Shown here one piece after another: positions 11,610 to 55,853 of a stretch of 64,000 nt of DNA. The notes beneath the pieces are model-generated. The model did no database searches, was not told the origin of the DNA, and worked only from the letters and a program-made list of their open reading frames with translations. A program made the position numbers and the translations under genes. Position 1 is the first letter of the stretch, and every line of letters begins with the position of its first letter. The DNA comes from an uncultured Rubritalea sp. (GTDB lineage: Bacteria > Verrucomicrobiota > Verrucomicrobiia > Verrucomicrobiales > Akkermansiaceae): positions 1-64,000 of the forward strand of contig CALAJT010000015.1 of assembly GCA_937923145.1 (NCBI GenBank), read 5' to 3'.

Positions 11610-12698
11610 ATGAAAGAAAAAGCGATCGCTCTTCTGAAGGAGCTTACTGATGCACACAGTGTCCCTGGGTATGAAGATGAAGTCCGTGCAATATTTGCGG
11701 ATGAGCTCGGTCATGTCAGCGGTGAACTCGGCTCTGATAAGCAGGGTAGTGTCTATTTAGAAAGTGGCTCAAAGGAAGGTCCACGTATTCTAGTAGCCGG
11801 TCACATGGATGAAGTAGGCTTCCGTGTTCAGAGTGTTACCCCTAATGGCTTTATCAGGTTCGTCCCTGTCGGAGGTTGGTGGCCCCACGTTCTGCTATCT
11901 CAGCGTGTTATTGTACGCAACCGTGAAGGAGAAAAAATCCTTGGGGTTATTGCCAGTACTCCGCCACATTTCTTACCTGAAGCGGCTAGATCTAAGGTAA
12001 TGACCATTGATGAACTCTTTATAGACATAGGCGCTAGCTCAGCAATAGAAGTATCGCAGATTTTCGGTATTTCTGTCGGTGACCCTATCGCCCCTGCGAC
12101 AGAATTTACTGCTATGAATAAACCTGATCACTATGTGGCAAAGGCATTCGATAACCGAGTCGGGATGGCATGTGCTATCCAAGCTGCACAGATGCTGACA
12201 ACAGACAGTGACCACCCTAATACTCTAATAACAGCAGGAACTGTCCAAGAAGAAGTAGGACTCCGTGGAGCTAAATCTCTAGCTGGAAAAGTCAGACCTG
12301 ACGTAGCCATCGTGCTAGAAGGCCCTCCAGCGGATGACACCCCAGGCTTTAATCCTAGCCAGAGCCAAGGAGCGCTCGGAGCTGGAGTTCAGATTAGACT
12401 ACACGATCCCAGTGCAATCATGAATCCACGTCTCGTAGACCTCGTGATCCAGACAGCCAAGGCAGAAGGCATCCGCCACCAAGTTACTGTCCGGACTAGC
12501 GGTGGTACAGATGCAGGCGGTTTCAGTATGGCAAATGAAGGCATCCCCTGTGTCGTCCTGGGAGTTCCATCTCGCTATATCCACTCGCATAATTCTATTA
12601 TTAATATCGGTGATTACCTAGAGATGGTAAACCTCACTGTAGCACTCGTTAAAGTGCTTGACCAAGAGACCACTGATGAACTAACACGATATTTATAG
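11610..12698 (+). CDS. M42 family metallopeptidase (glutamyl/aminopeptidase type)
   Basis: A 362-residue cytosolic dinuclear metal aminopeptidase of the M42 (FrvX/PepA-like) family. Metal-binding and catalytic motifs are in order: AGHMDEVGF (His-Asp, about residues 67-75), AFDNRVGMACA (bridging Asp, about 179), TVQEEVGLRGA (catalytic Glu pair, about 211), VLEGPPADDTPG and RTSGGTDAGGF, with a late ligand His in SRYIHSHNS. Length is normal. The gene stands alone and has no signal peptide, fitting an intracellular peptide-trimming role. The exact residue preference cannot be read from sequence. Confidence 0.93.
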   Translation: MKEKAIALLKELTDAHSVPGYEDEVRAIFADELGHVSGELGSDKQGSVYLESGSKEGPRILVAGHMDEVGFRVQSVTPNGFIRFVPVGGWWPHVLLSQRVIVRNREGEKILGVIASTPPHFLPEAARSKVMTIDELFIDIGASSAIEVSQIFGISVGDPIAPATEFTAMNKPDHYVAKAFDNRVGMACAIQAAQMLTTDSDHPNTLITAGTVQEEVGLRGAKSLAGKVRPDVAIVLEGPPADDTPGFNPSQSQGALGAGVQIRLHDPSAIMNPRLVDLVIQTAKAEGIRHQVTVRTSGGTDAGGFSMANEGIPCVVLGVPSRYIHSHNSIINIGDYLEMVNLTVALVKVLDQETTDELTRYL

Positions 12699-12772
12699 CT
12701 TATACTGTTCTAGCATTCCATTTGACAATTACACTCAAACATCTAAATATTAATACATAACAACATAAGATT

Positions 12773-13663
12773 ATGTTTCTAAAATCATTTTTCACTGTAA
12801 TAGCTCTCTCAGCACTAATCTTCACTTCATGTAATAATGAGAAGAACGAGGTTAGATCATCTAACAAATCTTCTCCAAAGAGTCGTGCAGAAGCTGCTAA
12901 AAAATTAAAAATACAAGCCGAACTAGAAAAACAGCAGGCAGAAGAAAAAATCGCAGCAGAAGCCGAGGCTGAAAGAATCGCAGCAGAAAAAGAAGCCGAG
13001 AAAATAGAAGCTCAAAAGCTCGCTGATGAAGAGTTAGCGGAGAAACAACTTCAAGCAGAATTAGCTGAGCTTGAAATAAGAACCGCTGCACAAAAAGCTG
13101 CTTGGGCAAACTACATCGGCACAAAATATGATACACTCAAGTTAGAAAATGGCAAAACTCTCACTAATGCAAAAGTCTCTGAAGTTCGCCCCACGCATGT
13201 TACTTTCATGCACTCAGCTGGCATCGCTAACATTAAATTTATAGAACTAAGTCCCTCGATACGCACTACCTGTAAATATGATCCAGAACTAGCCGCCATC
13301 TCAAAGAAGAAGCAAGCTGAACTACAGCGAAAAATCAGAACAAATATGGCTTACAGAAGAATCGCTCAAGAAAAAAGAGCTAAATCATTTACAGATAAGA
13401 CCTCTGCAAATAACAATTCTAGCTATAAAAAAGAAGAGACAACCAAAAAGGAGGTAAGACCTTTTGGAAGCATCTCAGTCCGAATTAAAAATATAGATAC
13501 AGACGGAATTAGAGACTATGGCTACAAGACTAGAACTCGTCGCGATGGACTACGTAAAACTATCGAAATCTCGGCATATAGCAATGTCCCAGCCATCCTC
13601 AGTGTCAATGGCTCATCCTATAGAGTCACACCCAAAGTTAACTTAATACAATCAGTAAACTGA
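12773..13663 (+). CDS. Lipoprotein with an Ala/Glu/Lys coiled coil
   Basis: A 296-residue predicted lipoprotein: hydrophobic N-terminus MFLKSFFTVIALSALIF with lipobox FTSC. Residues about 35-110 are a charged heptad-like helix with repeats such as EAEAERIAAEKEAEK, a probable long coiled coil. A small beta-like domain follows with NGKTLTNAKVSEVRPTHVTF, a pattern seen in PVC proteins that have SLA1/SHD1-like segments. The C-terminus is a basic domain that contains GSISVRIKNID. No enzymatic motif is seen; a periplasmic structural role is a guess. Confidence 0.65.
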   Translation: MFLKSFFTVIALSALIFTSCNNEKNEVRSSNKSSPKSRAEAAKKLKIQAELEKQQAEEKIAAEAEAERIAAEKEAEKIEAQKLADEELAEKQLQAELAELEIRTAAQKAAWANYIGTKYDTLKLENGKTLTNAKVSEVRPTHVTFMHSAGIANIKFIELSPSIRTTCKYDPELAAISKKKQAELQRKIRTNMAYRRIAQEKRAKSFTDKTSANNNSSYKKEETTKKEVRPFGSISVRIKNIDTDGIRDYGYKTRTRRDGLRKTIEISAYSNVPAILSVNGSSYRVTPKVNLIQSVN

Positions 13664-46141: not shown

Positions 46142-48550
46142 ATTTCCCCCTTTATACTTTGTAAACAATTATCCTTTTTCCTATTCACCTCTACTCTGTG
46201 TATCTCTGGACCTTTGCAAGTTACAGATACTGGACTAACTCTGCCCACCGATACTGGTCCCATTCTCCATGGCGGTTACACACCTGCTCAGTTATCTGCT
46301 AGAACGACTGATCCGAACTATAGCGCAAACTACGCTTCCTTCAAAGGCTTTGTAGATGCCCGGCTATCCAACCTAAATGCCCAATCAGATCAACAGCTGG
46401 CTAAATTCGCTAAAGCAGCGGCTCTACTAGATTATATGGGCAAAGCACCTACAGCAGGTGGAGCATACTCCAGTTACGCAGACGCCTCCATAGCTGCAAT
46501 TGGAAATATTGATGGACGCAATCCTAGAACCAACATTTTTGATATCCCATTTCCTCCTTCTGGTGCCGCCTCAATAGTAACAGACTCTACCACACTTCAG
46601 GTCATGTCTGAGGCTTATGATTTGCTCAGAGGCTCTAGTTCATTCACTACTGGAAAAGCTTCTATGCAGGCGAAGATAGATGACTGGGCTGACGCAATCG
46701 GTAATGACTACTATCTAACAGACTTAACTCAGGGTGAGTCCAACTGGGCGACCAAAGCTGGAGCTGCTCTAGTCACCACTGGTCTAGCTCTAAGAGATAC
46801 TAGCCAAGCAAATACTTACTTATCGCAAGGAACTTCCTACATCAATGCCTCACTGGCTAAAATGGTAGATGAAACCGGCTATAACCGCGAAGGACACTGG
46901 TATACTAACTACAGCTTAAACAACCTTCTCCCAGCAGCTATACATGTCAAAGCAGCCACAGGCGTAGACTGGGTTCAGGATATAAAGCCGATGGTTGAAT
47001 ACTCACTAAAGACGAGGTTGCCAGATGGTAGTAATGTCGCTTTTGAGGAAGGTCTACGCACCTACGCTCCGAGCGATGTCTTAGCTGCTCAATATTCAGG
47101 AGAGTTCAGTCAAAACCTCGCCTGGGCTGAGCAAAATACGAACACTACTGACATTTCATCAAATTTTGCGAACCAGCAAATCATAAGTACCACAAGATTC
47201 CTACACACTGACCTCAACATCACAGTAGCCCCCACTGGAAGTCCTACCAGCTTTCACCAGTCAGATGAGGTGAAGTCCGTTACCTTAAAAACCTCATTCC
47301 TAGACACTGCTGTCCAAGCTAACCTCATAGCAGCCACTGACTATGCGAGCACACAGCTAACGAATTCTAGACACAACTCTCAGAACTTCGCCGACATGAT
47401 CATCTACGGTAACGGCAAGCAACCGCTAGTAACCAGCACAGGTGGAAATAAAGTCACCAGCACAGACGCTACAGATAGAGCCAACTTCATGAATAACCCG
47501 ATGTGGAAAAATATCCCTCTAGTAGACGGAGCTTCCGCATACATCACTGATTCCAATCAACTCGGGATGAAGGATACAATTGACTCCAGTAATGTAGGTA
47601 TTCACGTAAATCAATACCTCGATGCCGCCACCGTCTCTGCAAGTAATCTCGCTGGAGCAGACTCCGTTAGCAGGACTACTGCTATAGTAAATAGCCGTAT
47701 GGTAGCAGTGAAGGACGACTTCCAGGACAGCTCCGCTCATGACTACTCTATCAGCTGGCACGGTAGAGGCACCCGAACTACTACTAGCCCCTCTGCTACA
47801 TCATCTCAGAGCACTTGGATAGACGGAACTAGTAGGCTCACTTCATTTTCTGTTGCGAATCAAGCGCTTGCAGAAACTTCTGTAAATCGTATTTACGCAG
47901 AATACTTCGGCGGTCCAGCTGAAACGATCGAAAGCATAAATCTAGCGATGGCTAATAGCAATAACGCTAGCGCTCTAACAGTCTTTGCCATCTCAGAAAC
48001 TACTGCAACAGCACCAGTCTTCACTGAAATCATTACGAATACATCAGTGAGCGTAGGTATTAAAATTACCGAGGTTAGCCAAGAACACCTCATTTTATCA
48101 TCTCTAGGAGGTACTAACTTCGCCGCTGATAAAGTTCTTACTGATGCTAGCTTTGCTTCCATCACGCTAGAGTCAGCGGAAGTCATCGCCTTTGGAGTGC
48201 TTAATAGCTCTCTCATCACTTATGATGGTGACACTCTCTACAGTGGAGACGCAGTAGACATATCAGCAGAATACACAGATCGCACTATCACAGGAGTCAT
48301 CGGAGATGATACTTTAGGAAGCCACGATTACTTTATTGGAAAGACGAAAATACTCACCTCTAGTGGCTTATGGAAAGCTACTTTTAATGGCATCTCACTA
48401 GATTCTACACAGTTCGAAGAGACCGCAGATGGATTCATGCTACGTAACTTAGATGGAAATGGGCAGTTTCTCATACAAGTTCCTGAGCCATCTACTAACT
48501 CACTGATCCTACTAGGTTCAATAAGTTTACTTCTCAAAAGGAGACGATAG
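46142..48550 (+). CDS. Heparinase II/III-like PEP-CTERM protein, non-standard start
   Basis: A large exported protein of about 800 residues. An alpha-helical toroid-like N-terminal half (DTSQANTYLSQGTSYINASL; EGHWYTNYSLNNLLPAAIHV) leads into a beta-rich half with RHNSQNFADMIIYGNGKQP, the family's His-Asn region in heparinase II/III and alginate-type lyases. It ends VPEPSTNSLILLGSISLLL then RRR, a PEP-CTERM sorting tail. The TTG at 46214 gives no signal peptide. The frame is open upstream and from ATT at 46142 encodes a good signal (SPFILCKQLSFFLFTSTLC). Either ATT is used or the ATG was lost. Likely polysaccharide lyase; catalytic residues were not verified. Confidence 0.72.
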   Translation: MSPFILCKQLSFFLFTSTLCISGPLQVTDTGLTLPTDTGPILHGGYTPAQLSARTTDPNYSANYASFKGFVDARLSNLNAQSDQQLAKFAKAAALLDYMGKAPTAGGAYSSYADASIAAIGNIDGRNPRTNIFDIPFPPSGAASIVTDSTTLQVMSEAYDLLRGSSSFTTGKASMQAKIDDWADAIGNDYYLTDLTQGESNWATKAGAALVTTGLALRDTSQANTYLSQGTSYINASLAKMVDETGYNREGHWYTNYSLNNLLPAAIHVKAATGVDWVQDIKPMVEYSLKTRLPDGSNVAFEEGLRTYAPSDVLAAQYSGEFSQNLAWAEQNTNTTDISSNFANQQIISTTRFLHTDLNITVAPTGSPTSFHQSDEVKSVTLKTSFLDTAVQANLIAATDYASTQLTNSRHNSQNFADMIIYGNGKQPLVTSTGGNKVTSTDATDRANFMNNPMWKNIPLVDGASAYITDSNQLGMKDTIDSSNVGIHVNQYLDAATVSASNLAGADSVSRTTAIVNSRMVAVKDDFQDSSAHDYSISWHGRGTRTTTSPSATSSQSTWIDGTSRLTSFSVANQALAETSVNRIYAEYFGGPAETIESINLAMANSNNASALTVFAISETTATAPVFTEIITNTSVSVGIKITEVSQEHLILSSLGGTNFAADKVLTDASFASITLESAEVIAFGVLNSSLITYDGDTLYSGDAVDISAEYTDRTITGVIGDDTLGSHDYFIGKTKILTSSGLWKATFNGISLDSTQFEETADGFMLRNLDGNGQFLIQVPEPSTNSLILLGSISLLLKRRR

Positions 48551-50882: not shown

Positions 50883-51803
50883 ATGAAATTTATGAAACTT
50901 TCCTATATTTTAATCTCTCTCTTTGTAACTAATAATCTTAGCCATGCGATTACCATTCGAACCGACACGGTTAGCCATGATCGTTTTAATAATACTACAC
51001 CAGGTGCATTAGAGAATGCTTCATTCAAATATAGTTCACAGCAGTTTAGTGGAGTGGGGTGGGATGATACTGATACTCGTAAGTCTATCACCATGATAAG
51101 TGACAGACATTTTCTAGCTGCATCACATTTTGCAGTCCCAATTGGAAATACCGTTCACTTCAGAGACAATAATGGATTAGTCTTAGACTACATGGTATCT
51201 GCCATCACATCAATTTCTAACGCAGATAACTCTTTATCAGGAAATTCCGACTTAATTATTGGAACATTATCTAGCGCTGTAAGTAGCGATGTGAACTTCT
51301 ATCCACTTTTAGATCCAACATTAACTCCAGTCGGTCAAAATATCCTTATCTACGGACAGAAGGGTAAAGTAGGTGAAAGCACAATAGTTTCACACCAAGA
51401 TGCTTCGGTTCGCCTCACTCCAACTGCTACTCCTGTAGAAGGACGATCTTCAGTTTCTCAATACATAATTGCTGCAGGTGGAGGGGATGACGCTTTCTTC
51501 ACCAATGGGGATTCAGGAGGACCCAGTTTCATAGTCGGACAAGCAGGTGAGCTTATTGTCTCAGGAGTGCACTGGGCAGTTGGGAGCGATGAAATAACAG
51601 ATCCAATTGCAATTCCTGCTAAAAATAGATTTAATTTCGATACGCATGCATCTGATTATATAAATCAAATCAACATGATCAATGGGCTTACCGTGACAAC
51701 TTCATCTAATATCATCCCAGTCCCAGAGCCGAGTTCAGCTCTTTTAATCGCTATTTCTTCATTAACATTAATCATGAGGAGAAAGAAAAAAATCACTTTT
51801 TAA
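50883..51803 (+). CDS. PEP-CTERM anchored trypsin-like serine protease
   Basis: A 306-residue exported protein (signal SYILISLFVTNNLSHAIT). The trypsin triad is visible: His in FLAASHFAVP, Asp in SGNSDLIIGTL, Ser in NGDSGGPSFIVG. It ends VPEPSSALLIAISSLTLIM then RRKKK, a PEP-CTERM tail. It lies just upstream of the tRNA-like region and downstream of proC. Its target is unknown; extracellular or surface proteolysis is likely. Confidence 0.88.
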   Translation: MKFMKLSYILISLFVTNNLSHAITIRTDTVSHDRFNNTTPGALENASFKYSSQQFSGVGWDDTDTRKSITMISDRHFLAASHFAVPIGNTVHFRDNNGLVLDYMVSAITSISNADNSLSGNSDLIIGTLSSAVSSDVNFYPLLDPTLTPVGQNILIYGQKGKVGESTIVSHQDASVRLTPTATPVEGRSSVSQYIIAAGGGDDAFFTNGDSGGPSFIVGQAGELIVSGVHWAVGSDEITDPIAIPAKNRFNFDTHASDYINQINMINGLTVTTSSNIIPVPEPSSALLIAISSLTLIMRRKKKITF

Positions 51804-52094
51804 GTCTTTTATATAATCCCCAATACAAAACAAAGATATAGCAATTGTCTTGATATTTCTCAGCGAAAAACATTTTAACATTAAAAAAGATATAGTTTCG
51901 TCTTGCTTTTGAATCCAACCCGTGACACCTTACCCGCAGTTCAGTAAGAAAGCCGAACAGAAACTGCTCAACATATAATCAAACGTTCAATGTTATCCAA
52001 CAACATATTAAACTTCAGCCAAGGCTTAGCGCTTTGTATTACTTCCATTATTGGCAGTGTGCAATTAGTTATGGAATCATGGCAGAGTTTACTC
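51804..52094. other. Intergenic start of the tRNA-like region
   Basis: AT-rich sequence after the serine protease gene. It has no ORF I trust; a 79-codon frame at 51990-52229 has no family and overlaps the Ala-like element. A weak inverted repeat GCAGTT / AACTGC surrounds 51936-51966. It may hold the promoter of the downstream array. Confidence 0.4.
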
Positions 52095-52170
52095 GGGATG
52101 ATAGCTCGAAATTCAGAGCGCCAAGTGTGTTTTGCAAATACATTAGTAGCCCATCAAATGTATCCCATGG
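52095..52170 (+). tRNA. tRNA-Ala(TGC)-like element, degenerate
   Basis: Acceptor GGGATGA with TATCCC, TA at 8-9, D-arm GCTC gaaattca GAGC, then the canonical Ala-like GAGCGCC continuing into loop TTTGCAA (52131-52137), anticodon TGC at 52133-52135, with stem TGTGT/ATACA. About five extra bases lie before the anticodon stem, and the T-arm region (52143-52160) has no GTTC. Encoded 3' end is ATGG, not ACCA. D-arm and anticodon loop are convincing; the rest is decayed. Confidence 0.4.
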
Positions 52171-52266
52171 TAACACTCAGACCAGAGACAAACCATAAAC
52201 TCAACTCAGGAGGCAAGCATTCAGTATAGACAAACCTATATAATATATAGAACTACAATCTACACT

Positions 52267-52300
52267 GACTCGCTCTCCGAAAACGGAAGCGGGTTTTTTA
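52267..52300 (+). terminator. Probable Rho-independent terminator
   Basis: An imperfect 11-bp stem ACTCGCTCTCCG / CGGAAGCGGGT with loop AAAA and then TTTTTTA. It lies in the + strand direction, 100 bases past the Ala-like element, so it could end a transcript that starts near 51.9 kb. Confidence 0.65.
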
Positions 52301-52460
52301 TTTCCCAAATCATGCATATACCAGAAATCAAAGTAGTAAAATAGATACCCAAAAAATAAACAATTTTTAATCAACAAACCAACCATTAACCAAAAATATC
52401 TGGAGCACTGAGAGGCTCCCCAACAACAAATAAGTTACAATAATCATCCATAACAAACTA

Positions 52461-52501
52461 CCGAGGCAGCCTTCACCAGCTGTAACTGATGAAGGCCTCG
52501 G
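52461..52501. other. Long interrupted hairpin in the array region
   Basis: CCGAGG (52461-52466) pairs with CCTCGG (52496-52501), and CCTTCA (52470-52475) pairs with TGAAGG (52489-52495 region), around a loop. No T-run follows on either strand. It may be a structured RNA or an acceptor-like stem of a lost tRNA. Confidence 0.4.
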
Positions 52502-52994
52502 ATTAGACTACAATTAATATTTGGCAACTAAATGCCTAAATGCGGTCAATCAACGATAAATATAGATTACGCTTTAGGGACTAATGTCAAGTAATAGGGA
52601 AACCTATGTCTACACATATGATATATTATAATATCTACTAGATGTATTTTGTTCCTAAAAGGTATCGATTGGGAAGTGTACCTGAAACACCGAAACGTCC
52701 GCCAGAGAAATCCTGCGGCTGTGGCTTGGAAATCGAGCGACAAGGGTGTTCGTTTCTTAAAAAAATGAATAATAACGACTCTTTGAGATCTATCTAAAGC
52801 CATCTGCATACGCCATACGATGAGGCCAACCTAATATAAATAATAAAACAAACTACGCGTGCCAAGGCGAAGGCGAACCTAGTTCTCCAAATCGCTGCTG
52901 TTAAATCAACACAATGTAGTCTAGGTGATAGCTATTCTAGGTAACATGCAATCTTAGGCTTTAAACTCTCTTGATCAGTCGTTTCATAAATAAA

Positions 52995-53068
52995 ATACAT
53001 AGAGCATCAGTATGCAAAATGGATTCCAAATCCGATCACCCTTGGTGCAGCACCAAGTCTACATGTTA
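52995..53068 (+). tRNA. tRNA-Trp(CCA)-like element, degenerate
   Basis: D-arm GCAT cagt ATGC (53004-53015), anticodon stem TGGA/TCCG around TTCCAAA with anticodon CCA at 53026-53028, T-stem CTTGG/CCAAG (53041-53045 with 53053-53057). The T-loop is TGCAGCA, not TTC-type. Acceptor pairing is poor (4 of 7). No CCA. The Trp-like anticodon loop and perfect T-stem are the support; the stems alone could arise by chance. Confidence 0.3.
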
Positions 53069-53158
53069 CATTTAGTATGTAGTCATCTCATCTGTAAATG
53101 GCCATATGCTATTATAAAAACTAAATTTAGTTGGGCACATATTCTCCACTAATTTATT

Positions 53159-53233
53159 AGCGAGGTGAATGCTGGTATTCAAGACGGTCTCATAAGCCGT
53201 TTCTCGTGGGTTCGATTCCCATCCTCGCAACCA
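53159..53233 (+). tRNA. tRNA-Met(CAT)-like gene with encoded CCA
   Basis: Acceptor AGCGAGG/CCTCGCA (A-A at the first position, six pairs), D-arm GAAT gctggt ATTC (four pairs but shifted by one base), anticodon stem ACGGT/GCCGT with loop CTCATAA and anticodon CAT at 53191-53193, T-arm GTGGG TTCGATT CCCAT, and A then encoded CCA (53231-53233). The T-loop is canonical. An unpaired 1:72 and CAT suggest an initiator-like type, though the three G-C pairs of initiators are not present. A T-run follows. Confidence 0.6.
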
Positions 53234-53243
53234 ATTTTTTCAC

Positions 53244-53318
53244 ATTTTCATAATGAAACTAGCATCTTGCTGGACTGTTGACCCGCAATTCATGGGCAGA
53301 AACCATGTGGAAGTGCTA
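53244..53318 (+). tRNA. tRNA-Asn(GTT)-like gene, derived
   Basis: A seven-pair acceptor ATTTTCA/TGGAAGT (two G-U), TA at 8-9, short D-arm ATG/CAT, an anticodon stem TTGC-T-GG/CC-C-GCAA with one mismatch and an eight-base loop ACTGTTGA with GTT at 53277-53279, T-stem CATGG/CCATG with loop GCAGAAA. It ends G-CTA, so CCA is not encoded. It begins 10 bases after the Met-like gene. The long acceptor match makes chance unlikely; the T-loop is very unusual. Confidence 0.45.
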
Positions 53319-53339
53319 TCTTTTAACAAATAATAAATG

Positions 53340-53431
53340 GGAATTAGCCTAGCCTGCTCAGGGCGCTGCATTTGGAGAGCAGGGACCGCTGGCTCGTGTG
53401 GCCCGTGTTGGCAACGCCAATGAATCCTCCC
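53340..53431 (+). tRNA. tRNA-Pro(TGG)-like element with a long variable region
   Basis: Acceptor GGAATTA/TGAATCC (six of seven with G-U), D-arm GCCT...AGGGC, anticodon stem CTGC/GCAG with loop ATTTGGAGA (enlarged, anticodon TGG by centring), a long variable region that has GCTGGCTCGTGTGGCCC, T-arm TTGGCAACGCCAA-like. It lies 21 bases after the Asn-like gene. The anticodon loop is enlarged, so identity is weak. Confidence 0.3.
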
Positions 53432-53491
53432 AATTACAATCTGGAAGAGGATTTTTACAAACATGCACAGCCGCAAACGGAGCCAAGGCAA

Positions 53492-53567
53492 TCCAGTATT
53501 ACCGAACTGGTTAAAATCCCACCCTGTGAAGGTGGATATCTCGGTTCGATCCCGAGCGAAGGAACCA
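53492..53567 (+). tRNA. tRNA-His(GTG)-like gene lacking a matching 5' acceptor
   Basis: The 3' half is canonical: anticodon stem CCACC/GGTGG around CTGTGAA with GTG at 53526-53528, T-arm CTCGG TTCGATC CCGAG, acceptor 3' strand CGAAGGA, A, encoded CCA (53565-53567). The 5' acceptor should be TCCTTCG but the sequence reads TCCAGTA, with only three or four pairs; the D-arm region is also irregular. A GGTTAAAATCC segment just before the anticodon stem looks like an unrelated T-arm, suggesting a fusion or lost half. Confidence 0.45.
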
Positions 53568-53711
53568 ATTTATCATCATCGTTTCATTAGTTCAGTAGTA
53601 ACCACTTTTTAATACGCTGAATACCTCCACTTCGGTTTTCTGAATCATCGATAGTATCCAGAGAAGTTAAAATCCTCCACCTCGCTCCACCTCGCTCCAT
53701 TTCAGACAAAC

Positions 53712-53797
53712 GTAGCCACGACTCAATTATATTAGAGCGCCAGATTACGGATCTGCCGTTTGAATATTCAAAACCATTTGAGGCATGGGCTGCAAGT
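53712..53797 (+). tRNA. tRNA-Arg(ACG)-like element with a long variable arm
   Basis: Acceptor GTAGCC/GGCTGC (six pairs with G-U), D-stem CTC/GAG, anticodon stem CAGA/TCTG around TTACGGA with ACG at 53747-53749, a variable arm TTTGA atat TCAAA, and T-stem CCAT/ATGG with seven-base loop TTGAGGC. The extra variable hairpin is usual only in Leu, Ser and Tyr tRNAs, so Arg identity is tentative. No CCA is encoded. Confidence 0.35.
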
Positions 53798-53824
53798 CTT
53801 CAGTGTCCTGCCTCTTTTCAGAAT

Positions 53825-53901
53825 TAATCTGTAACTCAACTGGACAGAGTAACCGCCTTTTAAGCGGTAAGTTGTGGGTTAAAATCCAACCATATCAACT
53901 A
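53825..53901 (+). tRNA. tRNA-Lys(TTT)-like gene, derived
   Basis: Acceptor TAATCTG/CATATCA (five of seven pairs), TA at 8-9, D-arm ACTC aactggaca GAGT with GG in the loop, perfect anticodon stem ACCGC/GCGGT with loop CTTTTAA and TTT at 53859-53861, five-base variable loop, T-arm GTGGG TTAAAAT CCAAC (four pairs, loop lacks the C of TTC), end A-CTA. Spacing of every element is standard for a class I tRNA. The 77-base length is normal. Confidence 0.55.
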
Positions 53902-54056
53902 AACTTAAAACCTAATTTAACCATAACCATAACCAATAGAATAATATAAATAACTATCCAACAAATCTAGATAGGTAAGACACTCTCCGAGCAAGTGCTG
54001 GAGATGAGATTATTCTACTTAATAACTTAGTAAGAACTGAGCAAATCGGCGTGAAA

Positions 54057-54257
54057 ATGTTACTACAAAATGTAGCTGAAATACTTGATGATGATGAGAG
54101 CTTACTCGTCGATATCGTTCTGCTCATCACAGACTCTAACCGTATTGCTGAGAGTGATGTAATTCCAGAAGATTACGCATCAGCTCTTATAGCTGTACAT
54201 CGCGGAAACATGAGAGCTCGTAATGTACTTTTATCAGCGATAAATCACTCAGCATAA
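54057..54257 (+). CDS. Small hypothetical ORF (67-69 aa)
   Basis: A short acidic helical protein-like frame: MLLQNVAEILDDDESLLVDIVLLITDSNRIAESDVI, quoted only in part as VAEILDDDESLLVDIVLLI, and closing RARNVLLSAINHSA. A GTG two codons upstream (54051) is an alternative start. It lies between the Lys-like tRNA and the HNH gene. I recognise no family. Composition is plausible for a real protein, but position in a non-coding region makes it doubtful. Confidence 0.4.
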   Translation: MLLQNVAEILDDDESLLVDIVLLITDSNRIAESDVIPEDYASALIAVHRGNMRARNVLLSAINHSA

Positions 54258-54530
54258 AAGGCAGTTTTTCTAGCACTAACTAGCTAATAAATACTTTTTG
54301 TCGTGTGTTAATAAACAGAAGATGGTAGCAGAGTGCTCTGCTGTATGAACCAGGCGCTCTACGTTAACTAACATACTCACTATTAGACATATGTAAACTA
54401 TTTACTTTGTTTCAGATACCCACTGTGCTAGGTTAAAACTAGCAAACACATTGGATCATCTTTTTGTCATTTCTTAGAAGCGGACGCTCCAAATACCTCA
54501 CCTCTAACAGAACCTAACATAACATTACTC
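54258..54530. other. End of the tRNA-like region with tRNA-like fragments
   Basis: Between the small ORF and the HNH gene. GGTAGCAGAGTGCTCTGCTGTATG near 54332 looks like a tRNA D-loop/anticodon half with possible GTA, but the reverse strand also looks tRNA-like, so neither is called (only the 20-base core GCAGAGTGCTCTGCTGTATG is meant). GCTAG gttaaaa CTAGC (54427-54443) is a perfect T-arm-like hairpin without a 5' half. No other gene seen. Confidence 0.35.
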
Positions 54531-55115
54531 ATGAAAGATATACTCCATAAAAACGTAGTCCTAGTCCTCAATAGGAACTGGCAAGCTATCGCTATCACCA
54601 CACCTGCACAAGCATTCGGTCAGATGGCTACTGATGCAGCCACTGGTCTGGACATACAGTCGTGCGACTGGATGATGCCGGTGAAGTGGGACGAATGGAG
54701 AGATCTAGATGTGCGTGATGAAGACCTATCCGTAGGTGTGGCAAATGGCCGTATCCGTGTGCCCACTGTATTAGTATTGTGCAGATACAATAAAGTTCCT
54801 ATCCACCGTCCAAAGCTTAACTCTAGAAATATATGGCTTCGTGATGGCGGTGTCTGTCAATACTCTGGAAAGTCTCTGAGACCTAGCGAGGGCAACATTG
54901 ACCACGTAATACCTCTCTCTCGTGGAGGCTCTAACAGCTGGGAAAACTGTGTTCTTTCTTGTAGACAAGTTAACCAGAAAAAAGCTGACAAGACTCCGAA
55001 CGAAGCAGGTCTAAGACTCATCAGAAAACCATTCCAACCTAGAGCTGTTCCCATCACTGCGACGCTTAAAAACCTCCACTGTTTAAAGGAATGGAGTCAT
55101 TTCCTCATGTCTTAA
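54531..55115 (+). CDS. HNH endonuclease
   Basis: A 194-residue protein with an N-terminal domain (VLVLNRNWQAIAITTPAQAF), common to chromosomal HNH proteins of PVC bacteria and cyanobacteria, and a C-terminal HNH fold. The motif runs NIDHVIPLSRGGSNSWENCV with Cys near VCQYSGK and LSCRQVNQKKADKTP. The His-Asn-His type metal site is in DHVIPLSRGG...NCVLSCRQVN. It is the first normal gene after the tRNA-like region. DNA or RNA target unknown; a role with the array is only an idea. Confidence 0.85.
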   Translation: MKDILHKNVVLVLNRNWQAIAITTPAQAFGQMATDAATGLDIQSCDWMMPVKWDEWRDLDVRDEDLSVGVANGRIRVPTVLVLCRYNKVPIHRPKLNSRNIWLRDGGVCQYSGKSLRPSEGNIDHVIPLSRGGSNSWENCVLSCRQVNQKKADKTPNEAGLRLIRKPFQPRAVPITATLKNLHCLKEWSHFLMS

Positions 55116-55133: not shown

Positions 55134-55853
55134 CTATCCGCCGCAGCCTCCACAGCCACCACAACTACTGTCAGCACTACAGCCGACACCTCCAATGTCA
55201 GTGCCAGTGCTATTATCACCGCCGCCACCTTTACCTCCAGAACCTCTGCCGCCAAAAATCAGCACTAAGATAAAGATAAAAAATGCTATTACGAAAACGA
55301 TAATGGGAGATCCACCATCACTAGAAACGCAGCTCAAAAGACAAAGACTTAGTGCTGTAACGGCGCTACTTAGATAGAGCGATCTCTTAGAGATAATGAG
55401 GTTCTTCTGGCAATCGATATTTCTCATTTCTTGCCTAGCAAATCTAACAGCAGGCTTCGGCCATATATCTGCAGGTGGCTTACAACCAAAATTAATCTCA
55501 TAACTATCTAGAGTTTTTTGATACCATTGGTTGAATTTTATTCGTTCATCAGTCCCCCCTTTAGTCGGACCATGGTGCAAAGGAAACCCTAGTGTATCAC
55601 GACAGAGATCATGCCAATAACTCCTAGTGTAACAAAGGTGAAGATGCCAAACCTGATCAACTTCAACAGAAGGAGTAACGGGGTGAGAAGCCTCTCCACT
55701 TAAGTAAAGAAATCGTTTATATTCATCAATTACACGCTTGGAGTATTCTAGACTCCATCCATTTTCCCTCGCTATACGATCAGAAAATTTAAACTCAGAA
55801 CCCCTATCGTCTATAGAAAATGAGGTGAGTTTATCTAGTAGAATTGCGTTCAT
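55134..55853 (-). CDS. Glycine-rich domain (GRDP-like) membrane protein
   Basis: A 239-residue protein. The N-terminal 140 residues match the glycine-rich-domain-protein type with EVDQVWHLHLCYTRSYWHDL and FPLHHGPTKGG, an HLH-like His cluster. Two hydrophobic stretches follow (about 155-172; IIVFVIAFFIFILVLIF), and the tail is Gly-rich with Cys (GCGGCGG). The C-terminus is close to the convergent HNH gene (18 bases). Function is unknown; a membrane location is predicted. Confidence 0.75.
   Translation of the reverse strand: MNAILLDKLTSFSIDDRGSEFKFSDRIARENGWSLEYSKRVIDEYKRFLYLSGEASHPVTPSVEVDQVWHLHLCYTRSYWHDLCRDTLGFPLHHGPTKGGTDERIKFNQWYQKTLDSYEINFGCKPPADIWPKPAVRFARQEMRNIDCQKNLIISKRSLYLSSAVTALSLCLLSCVSSDGGSPIIVFVIAFFIFILVLIFGGRGSGGKGGGGDNSTGTDIGGVGCSADSSCGGCGGCGG

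Follow-up and report, generated by a model that had tools for sequence, protein, structure and literature searches.

The window, a 64,000-nucleotide stretch covering positions 1–64000 of contig C15 of an uncultured Rubritalea genome (G000, 2.7 Mb in 53 contigs), carries a run of tRNA-like elements upstream of an HNH endonuclease gene. We propose that this run is probably what erosion has left of a back-up tRNA operon that Verrucomicrobiales carry in the chromosome and that is tied to RNA repair. The copy in the window is a decaying array: six of its seven members are damaged and the Met tRNA is intact. The operon can be read in relatives, where arrays of up to 33 cloverleaves lie on one strand, most with an elbow that departs from the tRNA standard in a coordinated way.

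Seven tRNA-like elements can be placed in the window, all on the forward strand. A preliminary description of this DNA had listed eight there, and the seven with anticodons CCA, CAT, GTT, TGG, GTG, ACG and TTT lie at orthologous array positions in congeneric genomes (G001, G002, G004 and G006; two to four orthologues per element). The eighth, a TGC element at about 52095, could not be upheld: it has no tRNA match at E≤10 and its stretch aligns poorly with four congeneric sequences. The best cloverleaf nearby is at 52063–52148 with anticodon GAT, and because just 1 in 100 shuffles scores as high this may be a relic of another kind. The claim that the array is derived and decaying is borne out, since six of the seven elements have lost pairs, loop signatures or continuity relative to their orthologues. 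Simple duplication, against which the distinct anticodons had been taken to argue, is ruled out, since the orthologues belong to different isotypes and keep one order; this is a true multi-isotype array.

Each damaged element has lost different features. The Trp(CCA)-like relic (52997–53064) forms 15 of 20 pairs, and its four orthologues 17–18; its D-arm is weak in the window and in all orthologues, and its T-loop, of a rewired class (see below), reads TGCAGCA here and GGCAGCA in the four orthologues. The Met(CAT) tRNA (53159–53233) is supported by ARAGORN, Rfam and an alignment in which it is unchanged; our pair mapping shifted its T-loop; the pair count is equal in all four sequences, and the tRNA call is that of ARAGORN. 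The Asn(GTT) relic (53244–53315) keeps 18 of 21 pairs, all 21 of which form in three orthologues. In the Pro(TGG) pseudogene (53338–53432; 17/21 pairs, compared with 21/21 in G002 and G006) an insertion of about 21 bases breaks the T-arm. The His(GTG) relic (53492–53564) has 15 of 21 pairs and three orthologues have 20–21; the Arg(ACG) relic (53712–53786, ends approximate) has 13 of 21 and three orthologues 19–21, and the GG of its D-loop is gone. The Lys(TTT) element (53825–53899; 18/21 pairs, 21/21 in three orthologues) has damage in both the T-loop (TTAAAAT) and the acceptor stem. By T-loop class, Met and His are TTC and the Trp relic is TGC.

Standard tools recover two of the seven positions. 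In the stretch under study ARAGORN calls Met-CAT and Lys-TTT, and the Rfam tRNA model, a check that the preliminary description had proposed, places the same two above its cut-off and His weakly below it (24.0 bits, gathering threshold 29). Our own relaxed cloverleaf finder, whose thresholds we set ourselves and which partly misses long-armed Ser tRNAs, reports four cloverleaves with a score of at least 13 between 52961 and 54000, compared with a mean of 0.65 in shuffled sequence (none of 20 shuffles exceeding two). Under the strict cut-off applied to relatives it finds none in the window.

The arrays of relatives are far better preserved. The segment 51810–54530 has nucleotide matches in 24 of 58 genomes (its own included, some by short pieces only), and we took 20 related stretches of 4.5–16 kb around these matches. 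The congeneric loci of G002 (L030) and G006 (L034) hold 12 and 13 ARAGORN tRNAs, in the window's element order with additional tRNAs in between. Across 22 array regions, counting the window, which contributes none, there are 192 cloverleaves compared with 1.0 in dinucleotide shuffles (three each). Twenty further regions around the leader element described below yielded more arrays, with up to 33 cloverleaves in a dense one-strand run of many isotypes; one such region, L184, has no array. Control loci without arrays gave 22 matches in 985,944 strand-bases, and almost every one of these had an unrelated T-loop. The shuffles and these controls together rule out chance as the source of the cloverleaves in relatives. 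The total is 487 cloverleaves from 39 regions, two contigs of G004 among them, with L184 and L169 (the same genome as L052) left aside; the twenty further regions were scanned as whole 13-kb stretches, so the total includes a few matches outside the arrays.

The elbow of these tRNAs is rewired. The pairs G18:U55 and U54:A58 are the textbook tertiary signature of tRNA, and the enzymes TruB, TrmA and TrmH need U55, U54 and G18. The literature describes U55, in the form of pseudouridine, as conserved in all tRNA (PMC4810234). Most array cloverleaves of relatives fail the canonical elongator signature (T54-T55-C56 with G18-G19): position 55 is G in 380 of the 487 and T in 103. Position 18 follows it, being A in 329 and C in 16 of the 380 with G55, and G in 95 of the 103 with T55. 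Our finder's choice of position 18 prefers GG and then AG, and the raw count of GG in the D-loop is the unbiased figure: 98/103 with T55 versus 35/380 with G55 (Fisher 3e-65, a value that, like the counts, ignores shared ancestry). The 54:58 pair is T:A in 313 cloverleaves, A:T in 68 and G:G in 66. Moreover, A18 and G19 are nearly invariant in 65 aligned tRNAs whose selection rested on G55 and C56 and took no account of the D-loop. One and the same anticodon falls in several elbow classes across genomes (Lys, Pro, Asn and His among others).

We read these changes as a coordinated replacement of tertiary contacts and not as decay. The suggestion in the preliminary description that the array may supply specialised tRNAs thus gains support from the relatives. 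Its proposed comparison with genome tRNAs gave 30 canonical elbows among 30 sampled chromosomal tRNAs of G000, a sample found with the canonical Rfam model and so biased that way. In a search of open-licence papers we found no description of such rewired elbows; tRNA arrays in operons of this kind may have been mentioned before. These arrays are probably undercounted, because ARAGORN overlooks part of the rewired genes, for example Val and Gly of the AGC class in L037.

The array tRNAs of relatives look chargeable, judging by their identity elements. In a set of 483 cloverleaves, from which G004a, G019, G031 and the window were additionally left out, G3:U70 occurs in 12/12 Ala tRNAs versus 5/471 of the others, U73 in 24/24 Cys, and G73 in 18/18 Asp and 18/18 Asn tRNAs. 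His tRNAs agree in part, with both G-1 and C73 in 17 of 27. CCA is encoded by 285 of 376 tRNAs with G55 and by 59 of 103 with T55, and U33 is retained in 340 of the 376. Several charging identity elements are therefore kept, and the idea of tRNA decoys, also raised in the preliminary description, is not the better reading.

The arrays span much of the genetic code. L183 has array anticodons for 19 amino acids, L174 and L175 for 18 each, and G002 and G006 for 15 each. The closed genomes G384 and G090 have 64 and 65 Rfam tRNA matches, and the array is one cluster among them; it is thus an addition to a scattered housekeeping set. We also saw some unusual anticodons: a cloverleaf of the L181 array, at about 3833 in its oriented sequence, has anticodon TCA, which reads UGA, with the T-loop TGAAAAT, and the Nostoc array L185 includes an ARAGORN tRNA with anticodon CTA.

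A conserved leader RNA stands at the head of the array. In the window its core (52670–52756, forward strand) scores 90.5 bits with a covariance model, R1, built from 23 sequences of which the window is one; it is intact, and its score is on par with that of leaders in intact loci. No Rfam family, T-box included, overlaps this core at E≤10 in a search of 51500–55000. The conserved leader region begins, in a five-sequence alignment of congeneric DNA, with a stem-loop-like stretch followed by six T (52267–52299), which the terminator scan did not call. An inverted repeat at 52469–52496 forms a hairpin with 11-bp arms and a 6-nt loop, and a similar hairpin lies upstream of the core in most of 20 loci (flanks read by eye; L058 incomplete).

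The leader occurs mainly within the order. Among 288 genomes of the order from 50 genera, its own included, R1 matches 94, of which 90 reach at least 58 bits, in 26 genera; it is single copy in 93 of the 94, the exception being one weak second match. A phylum-wide sample gave matches in 12 of 288 genomes, and the eight strong ones all fall in the order. G384, from another order of the same class, has a moderate match (37 bits), also at the head of an array. The order of elements is not fixed, as in L063 the leader (12692–12777) lies about 4 kb downstream of HNH, near a contig end.

The leader has the look of a switch. Over 56 distinct sequences 97.1% of cells in the proposed pairs are paired and both partners vary in 14 of the 17 pairs, which exceeds all 500 shuffles and all slid controls, in an alignment fitted to that structure. 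Its AACACC is predicted to pair either with an upstream GGUGU, giving hairpin P1, or with a downstream GGUGUU that stands before a tail, T-rich in 40 of 62 sequences. These alternatives suggest an attenuator-like device.

GOLLD RNA shares the locus in a few relatives. A match to GOLLD (RF02032) was found in 6 of 58 genomes (own included in the search), always in the array locus: above the Rfam cut-off in G002 and G004, between leader and Met and with a tRNA inside it, and below the cut-off in four other relatives (91–140 bits). RF02032 has no match in the window or elsewhere in G000, and about 90 bases (53065–53158), placed by alignment with the congeneric loci, occupy its site here. We considered whether the core leader element is the 5′ half of GOLLD, and disfavour this: most loci tested have the leader without a GOLLD match, the window, G001, G022 and G034 among them, and in G002 and G004 the core precedes a further stretch that is itself followed by RF02032. 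This judgement excepts loci with a gap of about 500 bases to RF02032. Within the GOLLD stretch of L031 ARAGORN calls a tRNA with anticodon TCA (685–759).

Downstream of the arrays lie HNH and RNA-repair genes. The HNH gene of the window (54531–55115, forward strand, PF13395) has counterparts in other array loci, so that HNH is present in 22 of 32 oriented loci with the window counted. We clustered the downstream neighbours of these 32 loci by blastp. A protein of 475–519 residues occurs in 11, an RtcB-type protein in nine and a Band-7 protein in nine; all eight scanned members of the first cluster (of 11) are TROVE/Ro60, and the scanned members of the other two (two and three, respectively) were confirmed. 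In L183 the order is HNH, a FliA-like sigma factor, RtcB, Band-7, DUF4145 and two RlaP; L174 has TROVE, RNA ligase, Band-7 and RlaP. The sigma factor of L183 (5764–6483, FliA/WhiG-like), between HNH and RtcB and after the 33-cloverleaf array, is a possible regulator.

The link to repair extends across the order. At E≤1e-8 TROVE is detected in 19 of the 288 genomes, all 19 of them leader-positive (p 1.5e-10), and in 15 of the 19 it lies within 10 kb of the leader. This search misses G067, G090, G098 and G127, whose TROVE proteins were confirmed and which are all leader-positive, and it may miss leader-negative genomes too. By hand count, at least 29 of the 94 leader-positive genomes have RtcB no more than 12 kb from the leader.

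We propose the following mechanism for the intact operon. In relatives a structured leader RNA is followed by a single tRNA run, from a few to about 30 genes, and often then by HNH and RNA-repair genes. The locus would stay off during ordinary growth and be turned on once translation is blocked or tRNAs are cut. Transcription may be gated by the leader through AACACC, which can pair either in the upstream hairpin P1 or in a closing stem downstream, whose tail is U-rich. Processing of the transcript would yield tRNAs, to be charged by host synthetases, as we propose because identity elements, and often CCA, are encoded. Most array tRNAs have A18:G55 for G18:U55 and A54:U58 or G54:G58 for U54:A58; such an elbow should put them out of reach of enzymes that depend on U54, U55 or G18, and they may escape elbow-reading nucleases or modification control. 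Meanwhile RtcB or another RNA ligase, RlaP and Ro60 would mend the housekeeping pool. Little of the system is left in the window: the leader, Met and HNH are still there, six tRNAs have decayed, and the locus has neither GOLLD nor the repair genes.

A bolder form of this proposal holds that the relatives keep a second, near-complete, chargeable tRNA set with compensatory elbow pairs, expressed in emergencies only from a leader-gated repair operon, as a separate class beyond the reach of housekeeping modification enzymes and elbow-reading ribonucleases, with the window at the last stage of loss. To this we give somewhat less than even credence.

Several observations weigh against the back-up operon. 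The array of the window itself can hardly supply tRNAs. Some array tRNAs keep the canonical form (17 of 30 Glu-TTC and 14 of 21 Met-CAT), and mainly canonical arrays exist in Roseibacillus persicicus (7/8 TTC) and Nostoc. The 18:55 pair is reported to be important for translocation, in work cited by PMC4810234, and rewired tRNAs might translate poorly. Some discriminator bases differ from the E. coli pattern: the four His tRNAs with T55 have A73, Gly has A73 in 25 of 36 and Thr has T73 in 13 of 17. The leader switch is a fold prediction, with a tail that is T-rich in just the 40 of 62 mentioned above; genus members with an altered P1 have kept the downstream strand, and L159 and L173 show the reverse. 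TROVE is detected in only 19 of the 94 leader-positive genomes, or at least 23 with the scanned proteins. G000 itself has no TROVE match, and its two RtcB matches, one of them partial (C4) and the other a stretch with two internal stops (C8, 48689–49381, reverse strand), are both on other contigs, which fits a loss of the repair side as well. The link to repair consequently rests on relatives; at the window's locus TROVE and RtcB are absent, and RlaP was not searched in G000.

Could the locus instead be the cargo of a phage or mobile element, its tRNAs, GOLLD and HNH supplying the invader or countering tRNA-cutting defences, and the window a prophage relic? We consider this unlikely. In its favour, GOLLD lies in the array locus of all six GOLLD-positive genomes, relatives of the HNH protein occur on 24 IMG/VR contigs, and a mycobacterial tRNA cluster with GOLLD and HNH has been read as horizontally acquired (PMC6582537). 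Two loci, L073 (a 210,956-bp IMG/VR contig) and L074, carry rewired tRNAs beside a homologous HNH gene, 6 of 17 and 2 of 6 cloverleaves, respectively, being of the AGC, TGC or GGC classes and canonical ones being present too. Three of six other L073 proteins match PHROGs, one as a ribonucleotide reductase; the phage nature of L073 rests mainly on its IMG/VR listing. Of the window's neighbours, proC, clpX and pgm did not turn up in any of the 20 related stretches, all of them short (4.5–16 kb). The leader, however, speaks against this reading, as it is single copy in 93 of 94 genomes from 26 genera of one order. A convincing phage source for it was not found: blastn with the window leader did not find it in phage records, seven phage or IMG/VR loci scanned with R1 gave no match below E 0.11, and an exact pattern, which fits 42 of 62 known elements but not the window's own, found nothing in IMG/VR. 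The conserved downstream neighbours are, furthermore, RNA-repair genes; phage structural genes were not systematically searched. A phage origin would be compatible with later domestication, and at some stage exchange with large phages, in one direction or the other, is likely.

Still less probable, in our view, is that the rewired cloverleaves are tRNA mimics, which would bind Ro60 as Y RNAs do, act as decoys against anticodon nucleases or sense damage for the repair operon. For this reading, every one of the 19 genomes in which TROVE was detected is leader-positive, an elbow that has lost U55 and G18 would be recognised differently, and bacterial Y RNAs are reported to mimic tRNA, YrlA being uncut by a Salmonella nuclease that it may inhibit (PMC7790460). 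A decoy, however, needs neither isotype identity elements nor U33 (340 of 376 tRNAs with G55), CCA or a range of up to 19 amino acids, and TROVE is detected in a minority of leader-positive genomes, as counted above. A further reading concerns the window copy alone and is compatible with the back-up operon as the explanation for the family: here the array may be a pseudogene array, with tRNA function only in Met, kept for its leader, Met or HNH. We find this reasonably likely, given six decayed tRNAs out of seven beside a whole Met and a leader that scores like those of intact loci, and given a comparable small set (leader, Met, His, Lys and HNH) in Roseibacillus ishigakijimensis; Lys, which still passes ARAGORN and Rfam, counts the other way.

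The closest studied counterpart of the back-up operon is the trn operon of Anabaena sp. PCC 7120. This operon of 26 tRNAs is described as silent, with TrcR as its repressor and translation inhibitors as inducers, and deletion of trcR also raises expression of rtcB and of genes for an HNH protein and a slipin (PMC10272220). The two systems share a large multi-isotype array beyond a full housekeeping set and, for Anabaena as reported there, a regulatory tie to rtcB, HNH and slipin, the last of Band-7 type. On Nostoc plasmids homologous HNH proteins are about 31–34% identical over 85% of the window protein, and in two cases an array of 20–23 tRNAs lies directly downstream of HNH. The Anabaena and Nostoc arrays differ in being borne on plasmids of cyanobacteria, in having few rewired tRNAs (2/19 and 2/22 in two Nostoc arrays) and in lacking a match to R1. 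The rtcB of Anabaena is chromosomal, whereas in many Verrucomicrobiales relatives the repair genes adjoin the array.

Other known systems share parts of this arrangement. Mycobacterial array units combine a tRNA array, GOLLD and HNH in one locus (PMC6582537, PMC5966550); they differ in occurring in chromosomes, plasmids and phages, and the one array analysed here, pCBMA213_1, has canonical elbows throughout (26/26 TTC) and no R1 match. The array of M. avium has been discussed as a putative antidefence device (PMC12803027). The Salmonella rsr-yrlBA-rtcBA operon, which is reported to respond to cut tRNAs (PMC7790460), and RlaP-type repair likewise bring Ro60/TROVE, RtcB or an RNA ligase, and RlaP together with tRNA-shaped RNAs (PMC7790460, PMC7824862). 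Those RNAs are Y RNAs, whereas here the locus has up to a near-complete tRNA set with identity elements. Jumbo phage arrays place tRNAs with RtcB, RNA ligase, RlaP or TROVE (PMC7824862). Phage Tunturi_5 has HNH, tRNAs and a tRNA splicing ligase; its elbows differ in being canonical (19/21 TTC), and the rewired exceptions that we found are L073 and L074.

Other features of the region can be noted briefly. The preliminary description called the region poor in open reading frames, and it does hold few; but it is not empty, as a 68-codon frame at 54051–54257 (forward strand) is conserved in the genus downstream of the array, with 58–64% identity in four congeneric loci (L030, L032, L034 and L035). 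It has no Pfam family and no assigned function. PADLOC matches of the HNH protein to Cas9, PtuB and restriction enzymes seem to reflect no more than the HNH domain that these proteins have in common. Next to HNH, on the reverse strand (55134–55853), is a gene for a 239-residue protein with a Gly/Cys-rich end and no Pfam family, which also stands beside HNH in G004 (L032; 58% identity). In the minimal locus of R. ishigakijimensis (L067, 7484–8000), the set present resembles the one surviving in the window. Four IMG/VR loci with an HNH relative (L087, L094, L095 and L096) also carry a tmRNA gene. Elsewhere in the window, GC skew passes from negative to positive near 58–59 kb and returns to about zero over the last 2 kb, and a 778-residue protein (46214–48550) matches an alginate-lyase domain and ends in a PEP-CTERM-like C-terminus, as read by eye.

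The arrays of these bacteria matter beyond the window. A natural and widespread coordinated swap in the tRNA elbow amounts to an in vivo test of what translation needs in the elbow and of why cells protect it. The link with Ro60, RtcB and RlaP suggests back-up translation for tRNA-damage stress, with the new structured leader as its likely control point. If the rewired back-up set is real, its members would serve translation as a class functionally apart from other tRNAs.

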